Below the pieces are notes generated by a model that saw nothing but the letters and a program-made list of their open reading frames with translations, ran no database searches and was not told the DNA's origin. This document shows, one piece after another, positions 14,721 through 43,387 of a stretch of 64,000 nt of DNA (position 1 is its first letter; each line of letters opens with the position of its first letter). A program made the position numbers and the translations under genes. The stretch comes from Puccinia triticina (Eukaryota; Basidiomycota; Pucciniomycetes; Pucciniales; Pucciniaceae): positions 2,687,001 through 2,751,000 of the forward strand of contig NC_070575.1 in assembly GCF_026914185.1 (NCBI RefSeq), in the 5' to 3' direction.

Positions 14721-15792
14721 GTTCTTGTCAGCCTACGTGATGCCAAGGATATTATCCTTCTAGCTACACCTGGTGCAAAGCAAAAGATTAGAGTTATAAA
14801 ACTCTGAGACAAAGGTATGAGGGATAATTCCAACGTAAATGTTGGGAATTATAGCGTAAAAATTAGGGCAATGAGGGCCAATTTGACGTAATAAAATTGA
14901 TATGATTAATTTTAAGAGGGGCCTGATAAATCAGGGGTGTTTAATCCCTCTAGAATGAAGATCTGGGGCCTGTAAAATGGGGTGTTTCAAATCCCAGAAA
15001 GAAATGGTGGAGAATCTCAAGAGAAGGGGCTTAAACTTACTAGTATAAGACCCTAGAGGCACTTGAGGTTCTTCAGGCGTGAAGTTGGGCAGTTGGAGGC
15101 GCTCAGAAGAGGTAATCTTGAGGGCAGGGTGGTTACTGGACAGCTTCAGGGCGGAAATTGGGGCTAAAAATCACAAAAGTAGGTATTTTACCTGGCAAAT
15201 CACAGGCTATTGAGGCTGTTGAAGGCTGGTAAAATTCTAGTAGGTAATGTAAAGCTGGGGAATCTCCTTTTGGGCGGATAAAGGGCCCTTTTTATAGCCT
15301 AGGCAGGCCTCCAGGGGCGCCCAGGGGACATGGGGACACTTGTGGGCGCATTCTGAGGCAATTTGGTTGCGCTAGAAGGCGCTGTGGGTCGTGGAACCTT
15401 GGGGCTTGGATACAAGGGTTTCCAAGGACCATTTACAGAGGTTCTGCGTGATTTTACACATGCCTTACACGTCATGGGGGCTGGTTTGGGGGTTCTGTGA
15501 CGCTCATTTCCGTGGAAATGTGCCACAGAAGGTACTAGAACTGGCTTCTGTGTAATTGTAATCATGCAATTAGTGCTTTATACATGTTCTGGAGGCGCTT
15601 ATTAAGAGTTCCAGTTCATTTGACCCCTTCTACATATTTACTACAGTTGTAATTTACGTGTAGTGAGGCTTGGGAGAAGCTGGGGCACTTTCTAGTGTCT
15701 CCTGTGCACGCTGCAAGAGTCCTTATATATCAATCTAGAATGTTCTATATTGAATGACGTGGTAATTACATCTTGTTTGGTGATTAATTACA

Positions 15793-15823
15793 CTAGAGGC
15801 CAAGGCGGCTGCGCCGCTGCAGA
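15793..15823 (-). other. Helitron 3' terminus
   Basis: On the minus strand a GCGGC-GCA-GCCGC hairpin is followed by CTTGGCCTCTAG. The 31-nt end is identical to those at 43357-43387 and 58844-58874. Confidence 0.85.
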
Positions 15824-16531
15824 GCCCAGATGCCCAGCTCCACTATTCTTCAGCCAGCAACATTACTTTTTGTACTCAGCAACAGTAATTATGTTTGTAC
15901 TCAGCAGCCTTAGTTTCTTTACTCAGCAGTGGTATTTTATGTTTTCATGTTTTTGAATGCTAAATGCACACATTCTTTGAGGTGATATGTTGTAATCTCA
16001 CAGTTTAATTCTTCTGTTGGGCAAAAAATGAATGCATTGGAAAATATTTGAAGTGATAAATTGTACAACACAGTCAACCACTTGGATAAGATTATGTATA
16101 CCCCCAACCAATAACCCCACTGATCTCATAATTTCATCAGCTTGAGCCTATATAGATTGTGTGACCCACCAAGAAGGATATTCAGATCTTTCAGATTACA
16201 GGAAGCAGATCTATCTGAATGATAGTGAATCCATTGCCCCACCTTTTCAGGGTAAAAAAAATGGCTAATTTAATTGTTACAAGAGTATAGACAAACTACC
16301 ATAGACACAAACACACATATACACACAGACCAATTGAAAAAAGAGTAAATAAAGTAGAAGAAGTAGAATGATTAAATTTACTCAAGTCAACCAATTTGAT
16401 GAAATTGGTTTTTAGAGAGGAAGGTTCCCTGTTATGATTGACAGTCAAATGTTCATTAGTAGAAAGTTGAAAATAATGATCCAATCTTAGTTGTTCTTGC
16501 TGCTGTTGTTGAAGTAAGTTATGTTGATTTT
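15824..16531. other. Helitron 3' region, no gene seen
   Basis: AT-rich sequence with CAGCA repeats near 15840-15930 and a CA-rich stretch near 16300. A minus-strand glutamine-rich frame (16296-16553) only overlaps the end of the ARF-like copy. Confidence 0.4.
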
Positions 16532-17338
16532 TTAGGTGTTGTGTTTTGCGCAATTGACCTTTGAGGCTTTGGTGGCTACTCTGAAGAACAATCAGTTAAT
16601 GGCTTCTCTAATCCCTTGCCTGTAAGAATCAAAATACCAATACGTTCCAGACCAACAATCGAGTCTGTCAGTTCCATAAACTTACACTACAATGAGATTG
16701 TTGATAAGTCTTTTTTCAAAAGCTTGCAGAAAGACATACCCAGTTGAGGAGGAAGCTCCAAGAACGTTAGCTTCACTGAGACTTAAAGATCGCGCCTTTT
16801 CAGATATCTCAGATTCCATGACCAAGGGATTGAACATTGATTTGATTTCTTCGACAGTCATTGGATTGAGTTGTTGATGATGTTGGTCCTTGAGATCGAC
16901 TTCGGAAGTGGAGGTGGAAGATTGCAGAGGGGGGTCGTAAGCAGCGGACTTTTGTCCAGGCAGTGGGCAAGCTTCGCGGTCTTGTTTGTTGGCGATGACG
17001 AGGACGGGGATGTTGGAGTGAGCAATGGAGGGATGCTGAAGATCTTTTTTGAGCTCGGCCCATCCTTCGCCACGTTCTGATCCAGCGGGAGACTCATTGA
17101 CAGCTTTTGCTTTCCCCTTTCCCGTTGAATCACCACCCGATCCACCTCGGGCTTCATGGCTATTCCGAGCATTTCCATCCGTTTCGGAATCGTTCCTGAC
17201 TATCTCACACCCATATCGCATCCGCCTCTTCGTAATACTTCTCCCATATCGATCGGATGTGTTTGAACCCCCCCAAATCCCAGAATTTCAGGTACGTCGA
17301 TGACAACGTGATTCACCCTATGTTGAGGTGGGTTGGCA
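16532..17338 (-). pseudogene. ARFRP1/Arl3-type GTPase copy, decayed
   Basis: Reading leftwards: PTHLNIG (switch I), YLKFWDLGG (G3), then IRSIWEKYYEEADAIW, then IPVLVIANKQD (G4, NKxD), MTVEEIKSMFNP and GASSSTG (G5). An intron (donor at 16739, acceptor ending 16620) splices in exact phase to QGIREAIN, matching the ARFRP1 end GVREGIEW. Family role: recruiting golgins at the trans-Golgi. Disabling changes include a stop after AIWV and TGA where the conserved Trp of INW belongs. The P-loop exon is missing. It lies inside the Helitron. Confidence 0.78.
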
Positions 17339-17344
17339 AGGGTA

Positions 17345-19134
17345 CGTTGTTATATCAACGGTAAAGTTGACCGAGTCGGGCAGGAGGGTGCATTCGTGGT
17401 GCGGGCGAGTCAGCTGATTGATTCACTAATGTCGAAAAAAGTACAACAAAATGTGTCAGCTGCGAAGGGGCGGTGATGTGGGCTGAGAAGTGACGACGGG
17501 GCCAGGAGCAAAGGGTGCGAACCTTCCAACTGTGGTTATGGAGACACGTGCGGGGGGGTGAGAATGACCATGTGTTTTGGGGTGTGTCGGAAGATTTGCA
17601 GTTACGCGCAACGACCAATGAAAGGAAACCCCTTGGGTTAAACCGTTGCTCAAGGGGCAGCTCACGACGATAATCTATGTGTCATCTTCAAAGCGTCGAA
17701 TGGAAAGGTCGGGGAGAGGCTGAAACCCCTTGGGCGGGCGGATGGTGCGGTTGCCAAACAAAAAGGTCGGAGGGAGGCTGAAACCAATGGTGTTGTTTCA
17801 TCGTGATCGTGTCTTGCACTAAGTAGGGACGTGGCGCAACTTGTTCCCAACGGGTCAAGTGGTTGTTTCGCAAAGGGGGGACCGAAGAGATTTGTTTTGT
17901 CATGTCCAAATCAGGATTTCGGTTGAGCACCTGGGGTTGTGAAGCCGGCAAAGGAAGATAAAGAGTCAGCATCTCGGCGCCATTCAACTTCCCCCAGGTC
18001 AAACTTACCATTCGCATTTGTGAAGCCTGAGTTTGACCTCCCCTCCCGACCTTGCACTTGCTTGGCGCAGAGGGTTATAATTTAAAATGTTTACCCGTCG
18101 CACTTGCGCGGGTTGGACGACCCGTCTGCGCCACTGCGCTTGCAGTGGACCGGGGGTATTAACATCTTGAAAGTTTCCCCACACATTTTTGAAGGCTGAA
18201 CAAAAATCTAAGTTTATTAAATAAAATGTTTACTGAAATTATTTGGTTCCCCTGTCGCATTTGCGAAGGTTGAGCTTTTTTTTGACCTTGCGCTGGCCGC
18301 CACACTTGCTGGGTGTGGCACACCGTTAAGCCCCTTTTACACCATTCGCCCCCCTCCGTCCCCTTGCACTTGCAACAGGCCGAGGGGGATGACCCCGGTC
18401 CCTTTTCATTCATGATTCATGAATTGGGGGATCAGTCCGAGGCATTTATGTTCGGGGACTTTAAATTTAATTTTCAGGCAGTCAAGTCAAACATACTCCT
18501 GTCTGAAAATGTGCGAAATGTGGGAAAACAGTGTATGGCAGAAATGCCTGCTCTGACAGGCCCCTTTTGGGGCCTTTTGTGAAAGGGTTAGGGGAAACCC
18601 ATGATCCATATTTCCACGAAAGTGTGGATTTAATTATAAACTTAGATAAAAATCAACATTTTTTTCTACACCTCTTTATAGATTGGTCTTGAACTTCCTA
18701 CTATCATCAACTCTCTGATTTAGGATTGCTTGTGACCTAGCTATTCATGGCATGAGGGAATATGAGGGCTCAATTATGTGTTGGTAGCTTAGTTTCCTTA
18801 GGTGCTACAATATGTTTATTGCAACTTCACATGGAGTTGGGCTGGTTCCTTGAAAATTAATGCTTGATCCCAAGGACCATGCGCTTGAGGAAGTGCTTTC
18901 AAATTCAACAACACAGAAGTTATTTAAGCCTACCTGCATACAATTTGTTTGTGATTTACATGCTATTGGCTCAAATTTATATGCAAACATAGCCAGTTTG
19001 GATACCAAACTATGTTTGGAGATGATACTTTTGTGCTTGGTCTTGAGCCTTGATGGATGCTGTCCTCAAGAAGTTAAGTGCAAGCTGACATGTATGTTGT
19101 TAAATTGCATAAAATGATTGTACAGCTTTCATGA
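17345..19134. other. Helitron interior with degenerate short repeats
   Basis: No gene recognised. Words such as TCGCATTTGCGAAGG and TCGCACTTGCG recur near 18015, 18095, 18258 and 18363, suggesting an old degenerate tandem structure. A self-complementary GGCCCCTTTTGGGGCC lies near 18560. Confidence 0.4.
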
Positions 19135-19145
19135 CTAATCTGGAA

Positions 19146-21096
19146 TTAATGGGCCTGTAGGTACAAGCATTGGCAGCGGCGGAGGCGACCAAGTCGTTTC
19201 GAGCCGTTTGATGCTCCACATGGGATGTTGAGTCTGCGGGAGCGGACCATGAGGTACGCGGACGTGAGGTCGAGCCGGCAATGTTTCATGACGAGTGCGA
19301 TGACGATGGAGGCGCTGCGACTGACGCCAACAAGGCAATGCACGAGCACCTTTCCCCCGGCAACGCGACAGGCCACGATGAACGCCATGGCGCGCTCGAT
19401 GTGCGGCCGGATCGAGTCCATCCCGTCGTCCGCCACGCCCTTCATGTCCAACATCTCCATAGGTCCGCTCTTCCATTCGTGCCACAGCGAGTTCACGACA
19501 CGCGGCGTCGGCTGCAAACGGCGCCCCAAAGCGGCCGTTCTGTTGGTGCTGGTGGTGTGGGGCGACCAGCGCGGACTGATCGCCCATCGAGACCACATGG
19601 GTGATCCCCAACGTATTCAATGCATGGTTCAGGTTGCCCAAATAGACAAAGGGCAGGATGCGCAAGGGGAAGTGGCCATCGAAGCGGGGGTCGTAGAACC
19701 AGGGATGGTGTGCCCGGGTCGTCCGCGGGGGGGAGGGCGTCGGGGCGGAGGGGAGGGGTGGGTGGCGGCGGACTTGGCGCTGTGGACGGAGGAGACGCCG
19801 AAGGAGACGCATCCGCGCAGGAACGAGCTGCGGCTTGGCTCATCGACCGCCATCCGGTGCATCTGCTGTGCCTTGCGTTGCTCGTGCAGCTCCTGCTCAA
19901 TCCGGCTCTCCACCCGGCGCAACAGCTGGACGTCCGCGGGATAGACAAAGAACGAGCGGTTCTGGTCGTTCTGCAGATGCAGATAGGCGTTGGGAAGGGT
20001 GTACATGATGTACGACGGCGCAAAGAGGGACGTCTCTGTACTCAAAGTAGAGACAAGATTAAAAAAAATGAGCTTTTTTTGGATGATGCGCTGGAGAGGA
20101 GAGGATAGAACCCACTATCCATCGTGACAGTGAATCAACACTTTTCGGCCAGCCCTGCCTTTGCCGGGTTTCGCGATCTTCTTGACCCATGTGCACAGGT
20201 CAACCAAGTAGCGCACAAGCTTATCGCGGGACATGGCCCCTGAGCAGCTTTGGCCGGTGCTCGGGACTTCCATGTGGATGATCTCGGCAAGCTCGGCAGA
20301 GAGGCTGCTGTTCTTGGCGCGTTGCTTGATGCTGTCGAGATAGTTTTGGTTGAGATGGAATTCGAGCGACGAGGTGATCACGGCCTGGTCGTGCGCTTCC
20401 ACACACACATTGTACGGCGCATTTCCATACTCGTCTGTCATGGCGAAGTGGGAGGTCACCATTGGTGGGCGCTCATCGAACGCAGCGCGCTGACGTGAGG
20501 ACGATAGATCCTCTTTGGTAAGCGGGAAATCTGCAGAATTGCCGAGCTGTTGCGACAATGTTATCAGAAATTGATCTAGGAAGGAAGAAAGAAGAAAGGA
20601 TGGACGCACCCAAACGTTCTGGGCGATCTCCGAGGCTCTCGTTAGAGCCGCCATCTCTTCTCGCTCGCGCTCCAAGAAGTCGATCTTGTTGCGACGATAG
20701 CCCCAGCCGTCGACAGCGACAACATGGCTGAACTGGCGTTCAAAGACCTCGAAGGGATCAGAGGCGCGGCCACTTGGTTGGGGAGACTGGGAGGAGGACT
20801 CGGTAGTAGTGGTGTTGGTGGTGGTTCAGGTGGTAGAGCAAGGGGCAGGCTCGGAGTTGGCCAAGACAATGGTAAAGGCCTCTGTAGCGCGGGAAGTACT
20901 GCGCATGGACACTTGCAGAAGTAGGAGGCTTGAGGGGTGCCGGGTATAAGTGGAGCCAGGGAAAGACAAGGGACTCTTCAACCCGGGAGACCGAGGTCAT
21001 GTACGTGTCGTGGATCTCAGCAAATTCGGTGGAGCTGATCATCTGGATGGTCTGTTGAGGGGTTTGGATGGATGAGAGCAGGGGTAAGTGTTTCAC
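19146..21096 (-). pseudogene. PPS1-type dual-specificity phosphatase copy, decayed
   Basis: Order matches fungal PPS1: an N-terminal segment (FAEIHDTYMTSVSRVEESLV then FPWLH), RYRGL, FERQFSHVVAVDGWGYRRNK, the first phosphatase-like motif VLIHCHDG (no catalytic Arg, as in the family), YLHLQNDQNRSFFVYPADVQ, FDGHFPLRILPFVYLGNLNH, and the catalytic motif VLVHCLVGVSRSAS (HCX5R). At least one intron is retained (after IAQNVW, GTGCGT...CAACAG). A one-base insertion after RYRGL, a damaged splice donor after HCHDG and a frame change after THVVSMG disable it. The family acts in S-phase control in yeast. Captured by the Helitron. Confidence 0.8.
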
Positions 21097-22098
21097 ATTG
21101 AGCTGGAGACCTGGTTGTTGGCATGGTTCTCAATGGTGAGCCCAGCACCATCTAATCCCGGGCTTCCCAGCGCCGCGGTAGATTGTGGCTGGGGTGAAGT
21201 GTATTTAAGGGTGCTTGTCGGTAGGAGTCCTAGTTTGCCGAGTATCTCGCAACGGTCGGGAGGCTTGCGGTGGCAGTCTTGGTGTTTTCTTGCGATGGGT
21301 GACGGTCAGGAAAGAGAAGTGAGGGTGGAGGGTGCGACTATAAATAGAGCGGCCTCTGGCAAAGTGGAATCGCCAGTCGACTCGCTGTGCTGCACTTCCA
21401 GCCAGTGAGTTGACTCAAGCCCCTCCGCTGCTGCGTTTGCACAGTTTGAGGGTGAAAGGTGATGACCCCCCTTTGCAACTTGCCTTAAATCCGGCGCGCT
21501 GGGGGTCATCTGCCCAATACTTGCACCCTCTCTAGAAGAGGATGGGTATTGGGCTGTTTTTTATTTTATTTTTTATTTTTGATTATTTTGTAGGGGAAAC
21601 CCTTGATTTTTGTTTTTGTGATTGTCTGTCTTTAATAAACTCAGATGTGTACAAGCCTTATAACACATGTAATATTGCTATTGGGGCGTATTCTGGCCCA
21701 TTCTTACTTGTTGGTAGCCTGAGCGCTTTGGTTGCGGGCTAGTTTATGCATTATGCATATATGTACATTATGGGCGCGGGCTTGAGCTCTAGGCAACAGA
21801 GCACGCGGGCTTGGGTGCGCCACCCAACAAATAAAGCCATCTTTTAAACTGTACACAACACCTCAGTTACGTCACTGAAAATGGGTGTAAATATATGTAC
21901 TTATATATATATGTGCATACAAGTGCATCCACGCGGGGCGTGATGCACTTGCATAAACTTTGAAGTTAGTTTACACAAGGAAGGGATAATAATTAAGGGT
22001 ACTTGTAAGTGAGGTATCCTAGGTTATTTTACCCACAGAATAAGAATCTTCTATAACATTTTACATATTAATCACATAAAGCTGAGTAATTAATTATT

Positions 22099-23296
22099 GA
22101 ACTAACTTCGCGCACTGCGAAAAACTCTTCGCGCACTGTGGGGGTCGTTGTCTCGACATCCTGCCCCCAGTGCGCGCTTCCGCCACGGCTCTTCGCGCAC
22201 TGTGCATTCCCCCAAAAAAATGGCTTACTTTTCTGGAGATATTTCTTGATGAGTCGATAGAACAACCTCTTATGACCCCCCCAAAAAACAATCAAGTCAT
22301 TTGATGGTCTCCCTGAGCCTAGAGAAAATTGAGATAAAATAATTATATTTTAATGCGGCAGGGACCTGTAATATCGCTTCCTGTGCCCCAGTAGCTCCAA
22401 AATTTCACATTATCATGGTAAATGTGCAAATTCATGATCTGATAATTTTCAGAATTTTTCCCAGAGATATAAGGGGTGCGCGGCAGGCTTAGTAGGAAAA
22501 TTACTGCTAACTGTATAGCTTTTTTGTTACACACCCAAACTGTCCCAAAATTTCAGAAATGTTTTCATTGTGAATAATTTCCACGCCATAAATTTCTTGG
22601 CAATAGTGTGTCATGATAACATGAGATATAAGGGGTGCGCGGCGGGCTTAGTAGGAAAATGACTGCTAACTTATCTCATGTTTTAATGACACACTATTGC
22701 TAAGAGCTTTATAGCGCAGAGAATATGCAAAATTGAAACATTTCTGAAAATTTCAGACTGTTTCAGCGTGTAACAAAAAATCTATACCTGTAGCAGCCAT
22801 TTTCCTACTAAGCCCGCCGTGCACCCCTTATATCTCATGTTATCATGAAACACTATTGCCAAGGAATTTATGGCGCGGAAATTATTCACAATGAAAACAT
22901 TTCTGAAATTTTGGGACTGTTTGGTTGTGTAACAAAAAAGCTATACAGTTAGCAGTAATTTTCCTACTAAGCCTGCCGCGCACCCCTTATATCTCTGGGA
23001 AAAAATATGAAAATTATCAGATCATGAATTTGCACATGTACCATGATAATGTGAAATTTTGGAGCTACTGGGGCACAGGAAGCGATATTACAGGTCCCTG
23101 CCGCATTAAAATATAATTATTTTATCTCAATTTTCTCTAGGCTCAGGGAGACCATCAAATGACTTTTTTTTTTATGGGGGGGTCATAAGAGGTTGTTCTA
23201 TCGACTCATCAAGAAATATCTCCAGAAAAGTAAGCTGTTTTTTTGGGGGAATGCACAGTGCGCAAAGAGTTTTTTGCAGTGCGCAAAGTAGGTCCG
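22099..23296. mobile_element. Foldback DNA element with 9-bp target duplication
   Basis: A 1198-bp element that is almost entirely two long inverted arms centred near 22700. It is flanked by TTAATTATT at 22090-22098 and 23297-23305. The ends carry repeated GCGCACTG words. Each arm contains two copies of a block reading ATATAAGGGGTGCGCGGC, so the block occurs four times. The left arm has about 65 bp extra near 22140-22200. A 9-bp duplication and long inverted repeats suggest a Mutator-like non-autonomous element; there is no transposase. Confidence 0.82.
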
Positions 23297-23436
23297 TTAA
23301 TTATTTATATATGTATTTAATGTTTTTGCGTAGTTTTACATATGTAAGAGTAATAATGTCTCTTTCATATGTAAAACTACTTTTTATATTTTTATTTGTC
23401 ACGGTGGCTCTGCCATACTAGCCAGCTGACAGTTCT

Positions 23437-38645: not shown

Positions 38646-40993
38646 CTAGCAGGGTTAAAAAGTGGTGAGAGGAAGACCCCCAGCCCGTAAGCACAGGGTG
38701 GTCCACAAGTAGCGCCCTGCCAAACTGTGAAAGTGCAACAGCGGAAGGGGGTGAGACAACCCCCCGGCTGGAAGCCAGCCTGAGGAATTGCCTGAGGAAA
38801 CAAATCACTTTTCCTCCTTCCTGATATTTATAGACTCCCAAGCCTCAACTCCGGCCAGCCTTGCCATTGCTTGGACTCCTCATCATCTCTACAACAACCA
38901 ACGCCACCGCCACGGCCCTATAGGGCCCTATCTACTGCACTGCGCCGCCCTGGCAACTCCCGCCACATCCTGCGCAACATTTCATTTGGTTGCTTGATAC
39001 GACTGGCCTTGTCTCTGTACCTCATCCCAACTGCCTCACACTGCGCCAAGCCTTGCTTTCCTCCACGGAAACGCCACAACATCCCCAACGCAACCTTTGC
39101 CAGGCCCTCATGAATTTCTTGATTACACCAACCCAGCTCTTACTCATCACTCCGCGTAGCCCCCATAAAAACTTCACCAGGACCTTGCGCACCAGATCAG
39201 CTCTGCTGCCAGACAGTCTTCGCGCCTCACGTTGTGCAGGACCCTGGCGCTGCTGTCCTCAAGCCCGCCCATCCACTGTTGTAGTGGCTGGGCCAGTTGA
39301 TGTGCAGCTCTCTTCCTCAGCCTTGGTTCATTCCTTCTCATTGACTGCTGGATCATTAGGAATCTGACCTGTTTTGTTTTCCCAATCAACTGGCAAGAAT
39401 TCAAGGTTCAGTCACAGACTCCAATATCCAACAAACACTGCAAATTCTTGGCTGACATTCTTGCAATTTCCACTTTAAATACTTCTGCCAGCTGATTCAC
39501 ATTGCTAGGCTCAAGCCACGGGGCTCGGGCCGGTTCTTGTGCAAGAAATGCGGCCTCAACTGGGTGGACGGGATGGGGATTTAAGACAAGAAAGACATTC
39601 CTCAAGCGTTGATAAATGCACAATAAGCAGACGAGGGGCAAAGAGACGAAGTGGTATGCCAAATTAATCTTTTTCTCCGGCCTCTCTCTTGACGGGTGGA
39701 ATAAAATCACCGCCGCCTATGGCGGTGACATGTCCCTATTCAGACGCAGGTTTCAAGAAGAACTGGCTGCCGTGCTCCCGCCTTCCAACGTCCCTCAGGC
39801 CGCCTAGCCTGAGCAAAAACAGCTCCAGTTGATCAGCCAGCCCAAGGAACAGACCATTGAGGTAGACAAGTTGGCCGTAAGCAAAATCACACAGCAGGTC
39901 TGCATTTCCTCCCCCTTAATTTTTTCTTGCTTAGACAATAAGATGATGAATCTTTTGTTGATGTTCCTTTTTTTGGAGGGGGGGGGAGGGGGGCGTCGGT
40001 GGATGATTTAATGGGATTTTTAAACACCCAGGGCGTGTGCAAGAACTCCCTCTCTTGCCTAACTCATGGCTGGAAGGCCCTCCGAGACACAATCCTTGGT
40101 GTCCCCGGATGGGCAGCTGATGACGGCGAACACTGTTCCAATAAGCAGTGGGATGAGTTCTCCAGCGCGGTTGATTGGGATATTGATGTTACCCTTGCTT
40201 GTCATAGTTTTGGTGCTGCTGACATGGTTGAGTGTGATGTTCCCCCCCTTCTGAAACTAACCAATCTGATGGATGGTTTTTACTTTTTTTCCCTGATGGA
40301 TGTCTTGATCACGCGTCAGATGATGGCTGCACAAAACCCCAATCAACCAAAAGCATAGAAGCGATTTATCCCCTATAATCCATGGGTAGAGACCCTTTCC
40401 CATTGCTTGGAGAAGTTTTTAAGTAGCTGGAACACCCCGCCCGGCAAAGGCCTGGTCCCAAAGGAATGCTCATGCTTGATTGTCAAGTTCTTTACGTTCT
40501 GGAAACAGCCCCCCAAAATCTCTTCCTGATAAATTTTAGTAAGTCCAATCAGCTGTGCTTTTTTGCTACTCTCCATGGGATCATTCATAGCTTGTTCTCC
40601 CATCTTCCTGTCTTGGATTAATGGTCTGTATGATTTCTTTATTCACAACTTTTATCTTTCTTGTCACTGATCTCTTGCTTTTTCTGATAATAACTTTTCC
40701 CTCCTCTTTCATTCTTTGGAAGTTCACCCAGAAGCTGAATTTGGATTCCCTAAAAGCCATTCCAATCATGACTGATCTGACAATTGAATCCATTGAGTAT
40801 GCCAATGTGCATGTTCCGCCTCATGAAAAAGTCCCCCAGAAGGAAGGTAGAGCAGCTCAAAATGAGGGAAGAGTCAATTCAATTACTTTCTTGATCTTCA
40901 CAAGTCTGAACCTAACTACCACAACCATGAAGACTTGTTACAGTCAATCCAGCCTAGAAACATTGATTTCAAACACTTCTTCTAGATAACTCT
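38646..40993. other. Unassigned sequence
   Basis: No family recognised. Plus-strand frames at 39616-39807 (KWYAKLIFFSGLSLDGWNKI) and 39999-40358 (CLTHGWKALRDTILGVPGWA, WDEFSSAVDWDID) look protein-like but match nothing I know. They may be exons of one decayed gene. A G-run lies at about 39976-39992. Confidence 0.35.
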
Positions 40994-42649
40994 TGTCAGC
41001 TGGCTACTATGGCAGAGCCACCGTGACATAGAAATAATACAAATAAAACCATAAAAAGTAGTGTTACATATGAAAGAGACATTATTACTCCTACATATGT
41101 AAAACTACGCAAAAACATTAAAAACATATATAAAGCATTGATTACTTAGCTTTATGTAATTAATAAGTAAAATATTATGTAAGATTCTTATTCTACGGGT
41201 AAAATAACCTAGGGTACCTCACTTACACGTACCCTTAATTATTACCCCTTCCTTGTGTAAACTAACTTCAAAGTTTACGCAAGTGCATCACGCCCTGCGT
41301 GGATGCACTTGTATGCATATATATATATAAGTACATATATTTACACCCATTTTCAGTGACGTAACTGAGGTGTTGTGTATAGTTTATAAGATGGCTTTAT
41401 TTGTTGCGTGGCGCACCCAAGCCCGCGTGCTCTGTTGCCTAGAGCTCAAGCCCGCGCTCATAGTGTACATATATGCATAATGCATAAACTAGCCTGCAAA
41501 CAAAGCACTCAGGTTACCAGTAAGCAAGAATGGGCCAGAATACGCCGCAATAGCAATATTACATGTGTTGTATGTCTTGTACACATGTAATTAAACACCA
41601 AACAAGATGTAATTACCACTTCATTTAATATAAAAACATTCTAGACTGAAAAGAACTCTTGTAGCGTGCTCAGGAGACACTAGAAAGCACCCAAGCTTCT
41701 CCCAAGCCTCACTACACGTAGATTACAACTGTAGTAAATATGTAGAAGGGGTCAAATGAACTGGAGCTCTTAATAAGCGCCTCCAGAACATGTATAAAGC
41801 ACTACTTGCACAAGTACAAGTACACAGAAGCCAGTTCTAGTACCTTCTGTGGCACATTTCCACGGAAATGAGCGTCACAGAACCCCCAAACCAGCCCCCA
41901 CGACGTGTAAGGCATGTGTAAAATCACGCAGAACCTCTGTAAATGGTCCTTGGAAACCCTTGTATCCAAGCCCCAAGGTTCCACGACCCACAGCGCCTTC
42001 TAGCGCAACCAAATTGCCTCAGAATGCGCCCACAAGTGTCCCCATGTCCCCTGGGCGCCCCTGGAGGCCTGCCTAGGCTATAAAAAGGGCCCTTTCTCCG
42101 CCCAAAAGGAGATTCCCCAGCTTTACATTACCTACTAGAATTTTACCAGCCTTCAACAGCCTCAATAGCCTGTGATTTGCCAGGTAAAATACCTACTTTT
42201 GTGATTTTTAGCCCCAATTTCCGCCCTGAAGCTGTCCAGTAACCACCCTGCCCTCAAGATTACCTCTTCTGAGCGCCTCCAACTGCCCAACTTCACGCCA
42301 GAAGAACCTCAAGTGCCCCTAGGGTCTTATACTAGTAAGTTTAAGCCCCTTCTCTTGAGATTCTCCGCTATTTCTTTCTGGGATTTGAAACACCACTGTT
42401 TACAGGACACATTTCTTCATTCTAGAGGGATTAAACAGCCCTGATTTATCAGGCCCCTCTTAAAATTAATTATATTCATTTTATTACATCAAAATTGGCC
42501 CAAATTGCCTTATTCTTACACCATAATTCCCAACAATTACGTTGGAATTAACCCTTATAACCTTGTCTTAGAGTTTTATAACTCTAATCTTTTGCTTTGC
42601 ACCACGTGTAGCTAGAACAATAATATCCTTGGCATCACGTAGGCTGACA
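40994..42649 (+). mobile_element. Intact solo LTR of family D
   Basis: 1656 bp from TGTCAGCTGGC to GTAGGCTGACA, flanked by ACTCT at 40989-40993 and 42650-42654. The sense strand is plus: a TATA box (GGCTATAAAAAGGGCCC, about 42078) lies upstream of a likely transcription start near 42110. It is the intact counterpart of the split LTR at 14726-23431. Confidence 0.88.
42078..42094 (+). promoter_or_regulatory. TATA box of family-D LTR
   Basis: CTATAAAAAGGGCC about 30 nt before CCGCCCAAAAGGAG. The same element is present on the minus strand at about 15285-15300 in the split copy. Confidence 0.55.
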
Positions 42650-42654
42650 ACTCT

Positions 42655-43356: not shown

Positions 43357-43387
43357 TCTGCAGCGGCGCAGCCGCCTTGGCCTCTAG
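43357..43387 (+). mobile_element. Helitron 3' end, second copy
   Basis: Hairpin GCGGC-GCA-GCCGC, then CTTGGCCTCTAG, followed by T at 43388. Identical over 31 nt to the end of the 15793 Helitron. The 5' end is not located. Confidence 0.75.

Follow-up and report, generated by a model that had tools for sequence, protein, structure and literature searches.

We analyzed a 64,000-nucleotide stretch of the Puccinia triticina genome (GCF_026914185.1, contig NC_070575.1, positions 2,687,001 to 2,751,000; hereafter, the window), in which a Helitron insertion on the minus strand carries broken copies of two host genes, one encoding an ARFRP1/Arl3-type GTPase and the other a PPS1-type dual-specificity phosphatase. 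All searches covered the single assembly to which the window belongs (18 contigs, 122.8 Mb, with the window on contig C18), and repeat counts are lower bounds throughout. The insertion lies in a long terminal repeat (LTR) and, as argued below, appears to consist of two Helitrons, denoted A and B. The features are, in window coordinates:

14726..23431, strand not assigned: solo LTR that received the insertion, delimited by homology and interrupted twice, once by the Helitron and once by another insert (~22099-23296)
15793..21645, minus: composite Helitron with two 5' ends and one 3' end, at an A/T site without target duplication
18647..21645, minus: front part of Helitron A, which starts with TCTGAG at 21645 and is cut at GTTGATTTTTA^T, so that the final 215-235 bases, with the 3' end of A itself, are lacking
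19221..21120, minus: PPS1-type dual-specificity phosphatase copy, broken; introns kept, residues 218-407 without match
15793..18646, minus: Helitron B, complete; 5' end TCTAAG at 18646, 3' end CTAG at 15793; also found alone at C12:3298571-3301430
17599..18646, minus: 5' part of B, 1048 bases, common to a different Helitron, E, at C6:7652439
15793..17598, minus: 3' part of B, 1806 bases, common to Helitron D at C15:1254212
17325..17598, minus: separate captured fragment, matching C6:4432271-4432541 (93%)
16279..17324, minus: ARFRP1/Arl3-type GTPase copy, broken; upstream coding part missing, intron kept, nearest resident gene at C4:6574447-6575512
15793..15832, minus: Helitron 3' end, with the stem GCGGC-GCA-GCCGC and CTAG

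The insertion and its target site

Read on the minus strand, the insertion (5853 bases) opens at 21645 as A|TCTGAGTTTATTAAAG and closes at 15793 as ...GCGGCGCAGCCGCCTTGGCCTCTAG|T. Its termini are those of a Helitron, TC at the 5' end (TCTGAG) and CTRR at the 3' end (CTAG), and the 3' end includes the short hairpin found in these elements, a 5-bp stem 12 bases ahead of the terminus. Also as in Helitrons, the element sits between an A and a T with no duplication of the target. When the LTR flanks (15792 and 21646) were joined and used as a query, all 40 places scored among 250 candidates matched in one piece across the join, and the six LTR copies that were fetched ran through it gap-free, with zero duplicated bases, 3-4 mismatches per 120 bases, all of them more than 10 bases away from the join. 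These empty copies confirm the precise A/T insertion into an LTR, without target duplication, that a preliminary description of the window had proposed.

The receiving LTR, ~1.66 kb long without its inserts, begins with TG and ends with CA, and is homologous to another LTR in the window (40993-42650) as well as to genomic copies L061-L066. Because GTTCT flanks it on both sides (14721-14725 and 23432-23436), we consider it a solo LTR. It lies between the reverse transcriptase (RT)/RNase H frame and the integrase frame of a gypsy element; the Pfam matches of the gypsy frames were above the Pfam cut-off, except for rve, which was below it. The nesting described earlier was an LTR within a gypsy within a copia, of which the LTR and gypsy levels hold, the latter by its RT/RNase H and integrase frames; we could not confirm the outer copia, for which two frames lacked a Pfam match. 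The second insert in the solo LTR has inverted repeats that recur elsewhere in the genome and, by eye, TTAATTATT at each border.

The termini belong to a multi-copy family. In the 5'-end search, all 40 scored places matched, the window among them (513 candidates); genome-wide, the 5' end has 1001 exact matches and the 3' end 1648 (with up to 2 mismatches), compared with 0 for the reversed pattern in either case. Members share their ends and differ in their cargo, as Helitrons do, and the existence of such copies was one point on which the preliminary description depended.

The junction of two Helitrons

Genome searches with the interior of the insertion (40 candidates scored per search) showed a sharp break at 18646/18647, and at 18646 there is an internal Helitron 5' end on the minus strand, A|TCTAAGTTTATA. 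The sequence ahead of this point, A, has full-length relatives on C15, C4 and C2, a relative on C7 that matches in two blocks, and a further nine that are shorter, amounting to at least 13 other copies; A together with PPS1 is present separately on C15, C4, C2 and C7. The sequence behind it, B, stands whole and alone on C12 (98%), flanked by A and T, and C10 holds B minus the terminal 91 bases on the 5' side; thus, B with ARFRP1 is present separately on C12 and C10. By sequence, A and B are two Helitrons of one large family.

The internal 5' end and the separate halves contradict the claim of the preliminary description that one Helitron captured both genes. A single element could have done so by reading past its own end, a mode of capture that parts of the Helraiser report (PMC4778049) describe as experimentally shown and that may account for older captures inside A and D. 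As the way in which ARFRP1 and PPS1 became joined, however, read-through is refuted by the same two observations, and we give a single capture almost no credence. Instead, the sequence comparisons indicate that ARFRP1 and PPS1 were taken up by different Helitrons and were united when these Helitrons fused. The A|B junction is unique and repeats are prone to misassembly, so that two Helitron copies might have been wrongly joined by the assembler; however, this junction and the outer ones are precisely those of Helitrons, and a single LTR supplies both outer flanks, which makes an assembly error hardly credible.

B fills exactly the A^T site that other copies of A keep uninterrupted, so that the inner element of the pair occupies an A^T within the outer element, as in self-insertion. 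All 13 scored copies of A run unbroken through the start point of B as GTTGATTTTTA^TTGAAC, and 12 of them reach their own CTAG|T end 215-235 bases past the site. The exception, L032 (C10:3621192-3621706), departs from the A sequence ~30 bases past the site, its 3' tail having been replaced by other sequence, through either truncation or another change of the 3' end. In the window, the 3' end of A itself is lacking, and the LTR, not the tail of A, adjoins the 3' end of B. From the position of B at A^T and of the LTR directly behind B, it follows that the element has two 5' termini and one 3' terminus, the organization of a composite Helitron.

We conclude that 15793-21645 is the front of A joined to the whole of B, probably as a consequence of the insertion of B into A. 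Under this scenario, B would have inserted into A at A^T, yielding a nested precursor; the transposase would then have begun at the 5' end of A and terminated at the 3' end of B, the first that it encountered; and the product, the front of A plus B, would have entered the LTR as one unit, in a single transposition. Each cargo gene would likely have been captured earlier, by a different Helitron. Mobilization as one unit fits the empty LTR site, with the composite seen once and the nested precursor not at all.

The same letters would result from serial insertions, in which B entered the LTR first and a 3'-truncated A then landed at A^T on the 5' border of B. Truncation at the 3' end is reported for Helraiser (PMC4778049), tandem Helitrons are reported for Fusarium (PMC5148889), and L032, one copy of A in this genome, likewise is without the 3' end. 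However, this order of events needs two coincidences, landing on the border of B and truncation at an A that is then followed by T (AT dinucleotides make up 5.6% of the A part and 6.8% near the 3' end of A), and we consider it unlikely. Still less probable is a third history, in which A inserted into the LTR, B inserted into A in place, and the last ~230 bases of A were subsequently deleted: in-place nesting is generally known to be common, but the deletion would have to span exactly from the last base of B to the last base of A, leaving a perfect CTAG|T with the LTR.

Several observations weigh against the insertion of B into A followed by joint transposition. With up to 2 mismatches allowed, the window holds the sole match in the assembly to the A|B junction TGTTGATTTTTATCTAAG, so that no second composite was found, and the junction between the end of B and the tail of A (up to 3 mismatches) has 0 matches, so that there is no nested precursor among the 18 contigs, although either may exist elsewhere; because neither was found, the route of fusion is one that we infer. 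The folding energy of the 3' stem is not better than that of shuffled sequences (z 0.48). A search of the genome for the RepHel transposase gave 150 matches (150 scored of 200 candidates), 0 of them inside the composite, and no family ends were present at the 12 of these 150 loci that were examined with 1.5 kb on each side, so that the autonomous partner of the family was not found in those loci and flanks. Finally, on C1, where 59 exact 3' ends were paired with 82 exact 5' ends (the scan took mismatch-free 3' ends among the ends listed and thus undercounts 3' ends), two clusters have several listed 5' ends ahead of a listed 3' end; the cluster that was fetched (L080) turned out to hold two separate elements in tandem, a 3' end with mismatches lying between the two, and was rejected as a composite.

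The substitution level of A in the window is 1.5% relative to the C15, C4 and C2 copies and 1.9% relative to the C7 copy, with the C15 copy differing from the C4 and C2 copies by 0.3% each; for B, it is 1.3% relative to C12 and 1.0% relative to C10. The LTR differs from five relatives by 5-6%. Compared by substitutions, with no clock applied, the lower divergence of A and B is in line with Helitrons that are younger than the LTR family.

Judging from the matches of its two parts, B itself is recombinant, built of sequence common to Helitrons E and D. Past 17598, D continues with other 5'-side sequence, common to C6:4432271, and starts, by eye, at its own TCCAAGTTTATT end. Because D matches both the 3' part of B and C6:4432271, it holds at least two captured pieces, one of which is ARFRP1. 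A plus-strand motif resembling the 5' end is also present inside B, at 18207.

The captured genes

Both gene copies are on the minus strand, in the orientation of the Helitron, and both retain introns, as seen against the resident genes; the resident genes nearest to them are on separate contigs, ARFRP1 on C4 and PPS1 on C15, and thus are not side by side at an ordinary host locus. In these respects, the preliminary description, which reported two intron-bearing copies in the orientation of the Helitron and inferred capture from separate loci, agrees with our findings.

ARFRP1 is found at five places in the genome, one resident gene on C4 and four Helitron-borne copies (C10, C12, C15 and the window), which account for 14 of the 16 matches, the other two being weak and located elsewhere (all 22 candidates scored). 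Over 95% of the query, the resident gene shows 100% identity to an Arf-family protein of P. triticina 1-1 BBBD Race 1; proteins named ARL3 and ARFRP1 follow lower among its matches, and the gene also matches Pfam Arf. By itself, the window copy has no Pfam Arf match in a scan of four window frames (which detected DSPc in one frame, the remaining matches being below the Pfam cut-off), and 53 residues of it, used as a protein query, gave no match. The captured piece begins within the gene and retains the last intron. Relative to the resident gene, the four Helitron copies have synonymous divergence (Ks) of 0.11-0.12 and non-synonymous divergence (Ka) of 0.05-0.08. Since indels of 3, 11, 1 and 8 bases are common to all four, the copy likely was already broken in their common ancestor.

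Two of the 38 matches in public protein sets, the P. triticina proteins PtB15_12B304 and PtB15_15B125, are 86% and 85% identical to the query, respectively, and their identity to the copies described here reaches 93% for the former and, across the intron, 76% for the latter; by eye, both have copy-type residues that are absent from the resident gene. These proteins likely are Helitron-borne ARFRP1 copies annotated as genes. Public protein sets for P. triticina likely list Helitron-borne ARFRP1 pieces as hypothetical proteins, and such pieces can there be mistaken for genes.

The PPS1 copy in A has a DSPc (Pfam) match and covers residues 121-217 and 408-879 of 943. Compared with the exons of the resident gene on C15, which matches a P. 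graminis protein named pps1 at 92%, it is broken by two stops and frame-shifting gaps; some further stops counted in the protein search fall in read-through introns and are not counted as breaks. Given that both gene copies are broken, the composite most likely is a carrier of pseudogene pieces rather than a working two-gene unit. A protein search of the genome (all 36 candidates scored) found a single complete resident PPS1, together with the copies in A and weakly matching pieces on C11 and C2. All nine short relatives of A, including L055 (C12:1365462-1368950), retain a C-terminal PPS1 piece; their mid-part, ~0.8 kb, is mutually alike and unlike the window, and L055 also lies in an LTR of the same family as that in the window.

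In four copies, divergence from the resident gene differs among the parts of PPS1, with Ks of 0.61-0.70 and Ka of 0.16-0.18 in the N-terminal part, Ks of 0.69-0.72 and Ka of 0.06 in the middle exon, and Ks of 1.27-1.38 and Ka of 0.12-0.14 in the catalytic exon, where third-position G+C is 0.85 versus 0.71 in the comparison of copy and resident. Introns are at the same positions in copy and resident, and their sequences look unrelated by eye. In the middle exon (142 residues), protein identity is 88.0% between copy and resident, 81.0% between copy and P. graminis, and 89.4% between resident and P. graminis. Because Ks is high with the protein largely kept, and copies of A are only 0.3% apart, the divergence probably accumulated for the most part before capture, in a PPS1 that still worked. 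The source thus appears likely to have been a diverged, once functional PPS1, either a lost paralogue or the gene of another rust.

In a tree of the middle exon (13 rows, 11 of them different, 145 of 147 columns), built from 8 of 120 listed proteins and five copies of A, with P0008, a second P. striiformis model, unused, the Helitron copies group together (100/100) among the Puccinia rows and are nearest to the resident by path (0.15). The forks within Puccinia are without resolution, and the tree does not separate a paralogue from a foreign source. Two weak PPS1-like pieces ~8.4 kb apart at C11:2628765-2637756, outside known Helitron copies, include one with 51% identity and one with 65% and two stops; they may represent a dead second PPS1, which would favor a lost paralogue. 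That PPS1 in A came from another rust species, so that the composite may weld a foreign piece to a resident one, we regard as a minority possibility, suggested by a catalytic exon in which copy and resident differ at the majority of silent sites with the protein largely preserved, set against three full copies of A that are almost the same as one another; if true, foreign PPS1 and resident ARFRP1 would form an inter-species gene fusion made by Helitron self-insertion.

Relation to known Helitrons

For the FoHelis of Fusarium oxysporum (PMC5148889, 2016), self-insertion with a stop at the first 3' terminus has been proposed (legend to Fig. 7), and these composites, like that in the window, have several 5' termini and one 3' terminus. 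This route thus is not new, and the window composite adds another case. In contrast to FoHelis, where the duplicated 5' part is typically <200 bases, the present element joins 3.0 kb of A to 2.85 kb of B, relatives of both parts are present in the genome, each half holds a captured gene, and single-base resolution is reached for the empty target and for the insertion point within A. In Helraiser (PMC4778049), the 3' hairpin likewise acts as the terminator, and the end used sets the extent of the transposon; there, a later terminator is used, whereas here an earlier one would serve, with no failure to stop required. The Helitrons of Pleurotus, another host, are also fungal and carry and amplify captured genes, the chimeras in the part of that account consulted (PMC4289320) being LTR elements inside Helitrons.

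According to excerpts of a survey of rusts (PMC12210899), Helitrons make up 2.6% (3.2 Mb) of P. triticina haplotype A, at the upper end of the rust range, in agreement with the wealth of Helitrons found here, and these excerpts describe no single element. TET/JBP genes in rust Helitrons are mentioned in portions of another study (PMC12730594). In the literature searched on Helitron capture, Helitron nesting and Puccinia, none of the titles or abstract openings listed describes the composite at 15793-21645.

The locus provides an unusually complete natural record of how cargo can be combined, in which relatives of both parents, the insertion point, the lost tail and the target can each be read with single-base precision. 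This record favors the view that a Helitron lying within another in like orientation supplants the 3' end of its host Helitron; cargo could accumulate in this manner without any stop failure, by a route along which unrelated genes would become joined.

Further ends of the family were also observed. Inverted pairs of 3' ends within ~0.7 kb are located at C6:4428930-4429633 and C1:8833770-8834460, and two more 3' ends lie in the window itself, at 43387 and 58874, both on the plus strand. Pairs of 5' ends on the same strand occur at C1:5228697/5228763 (66 bases apart) and C1:5748512/5748587 (75 bases) and resemble the short double 5' ends reported in Fusarium Helitrons.

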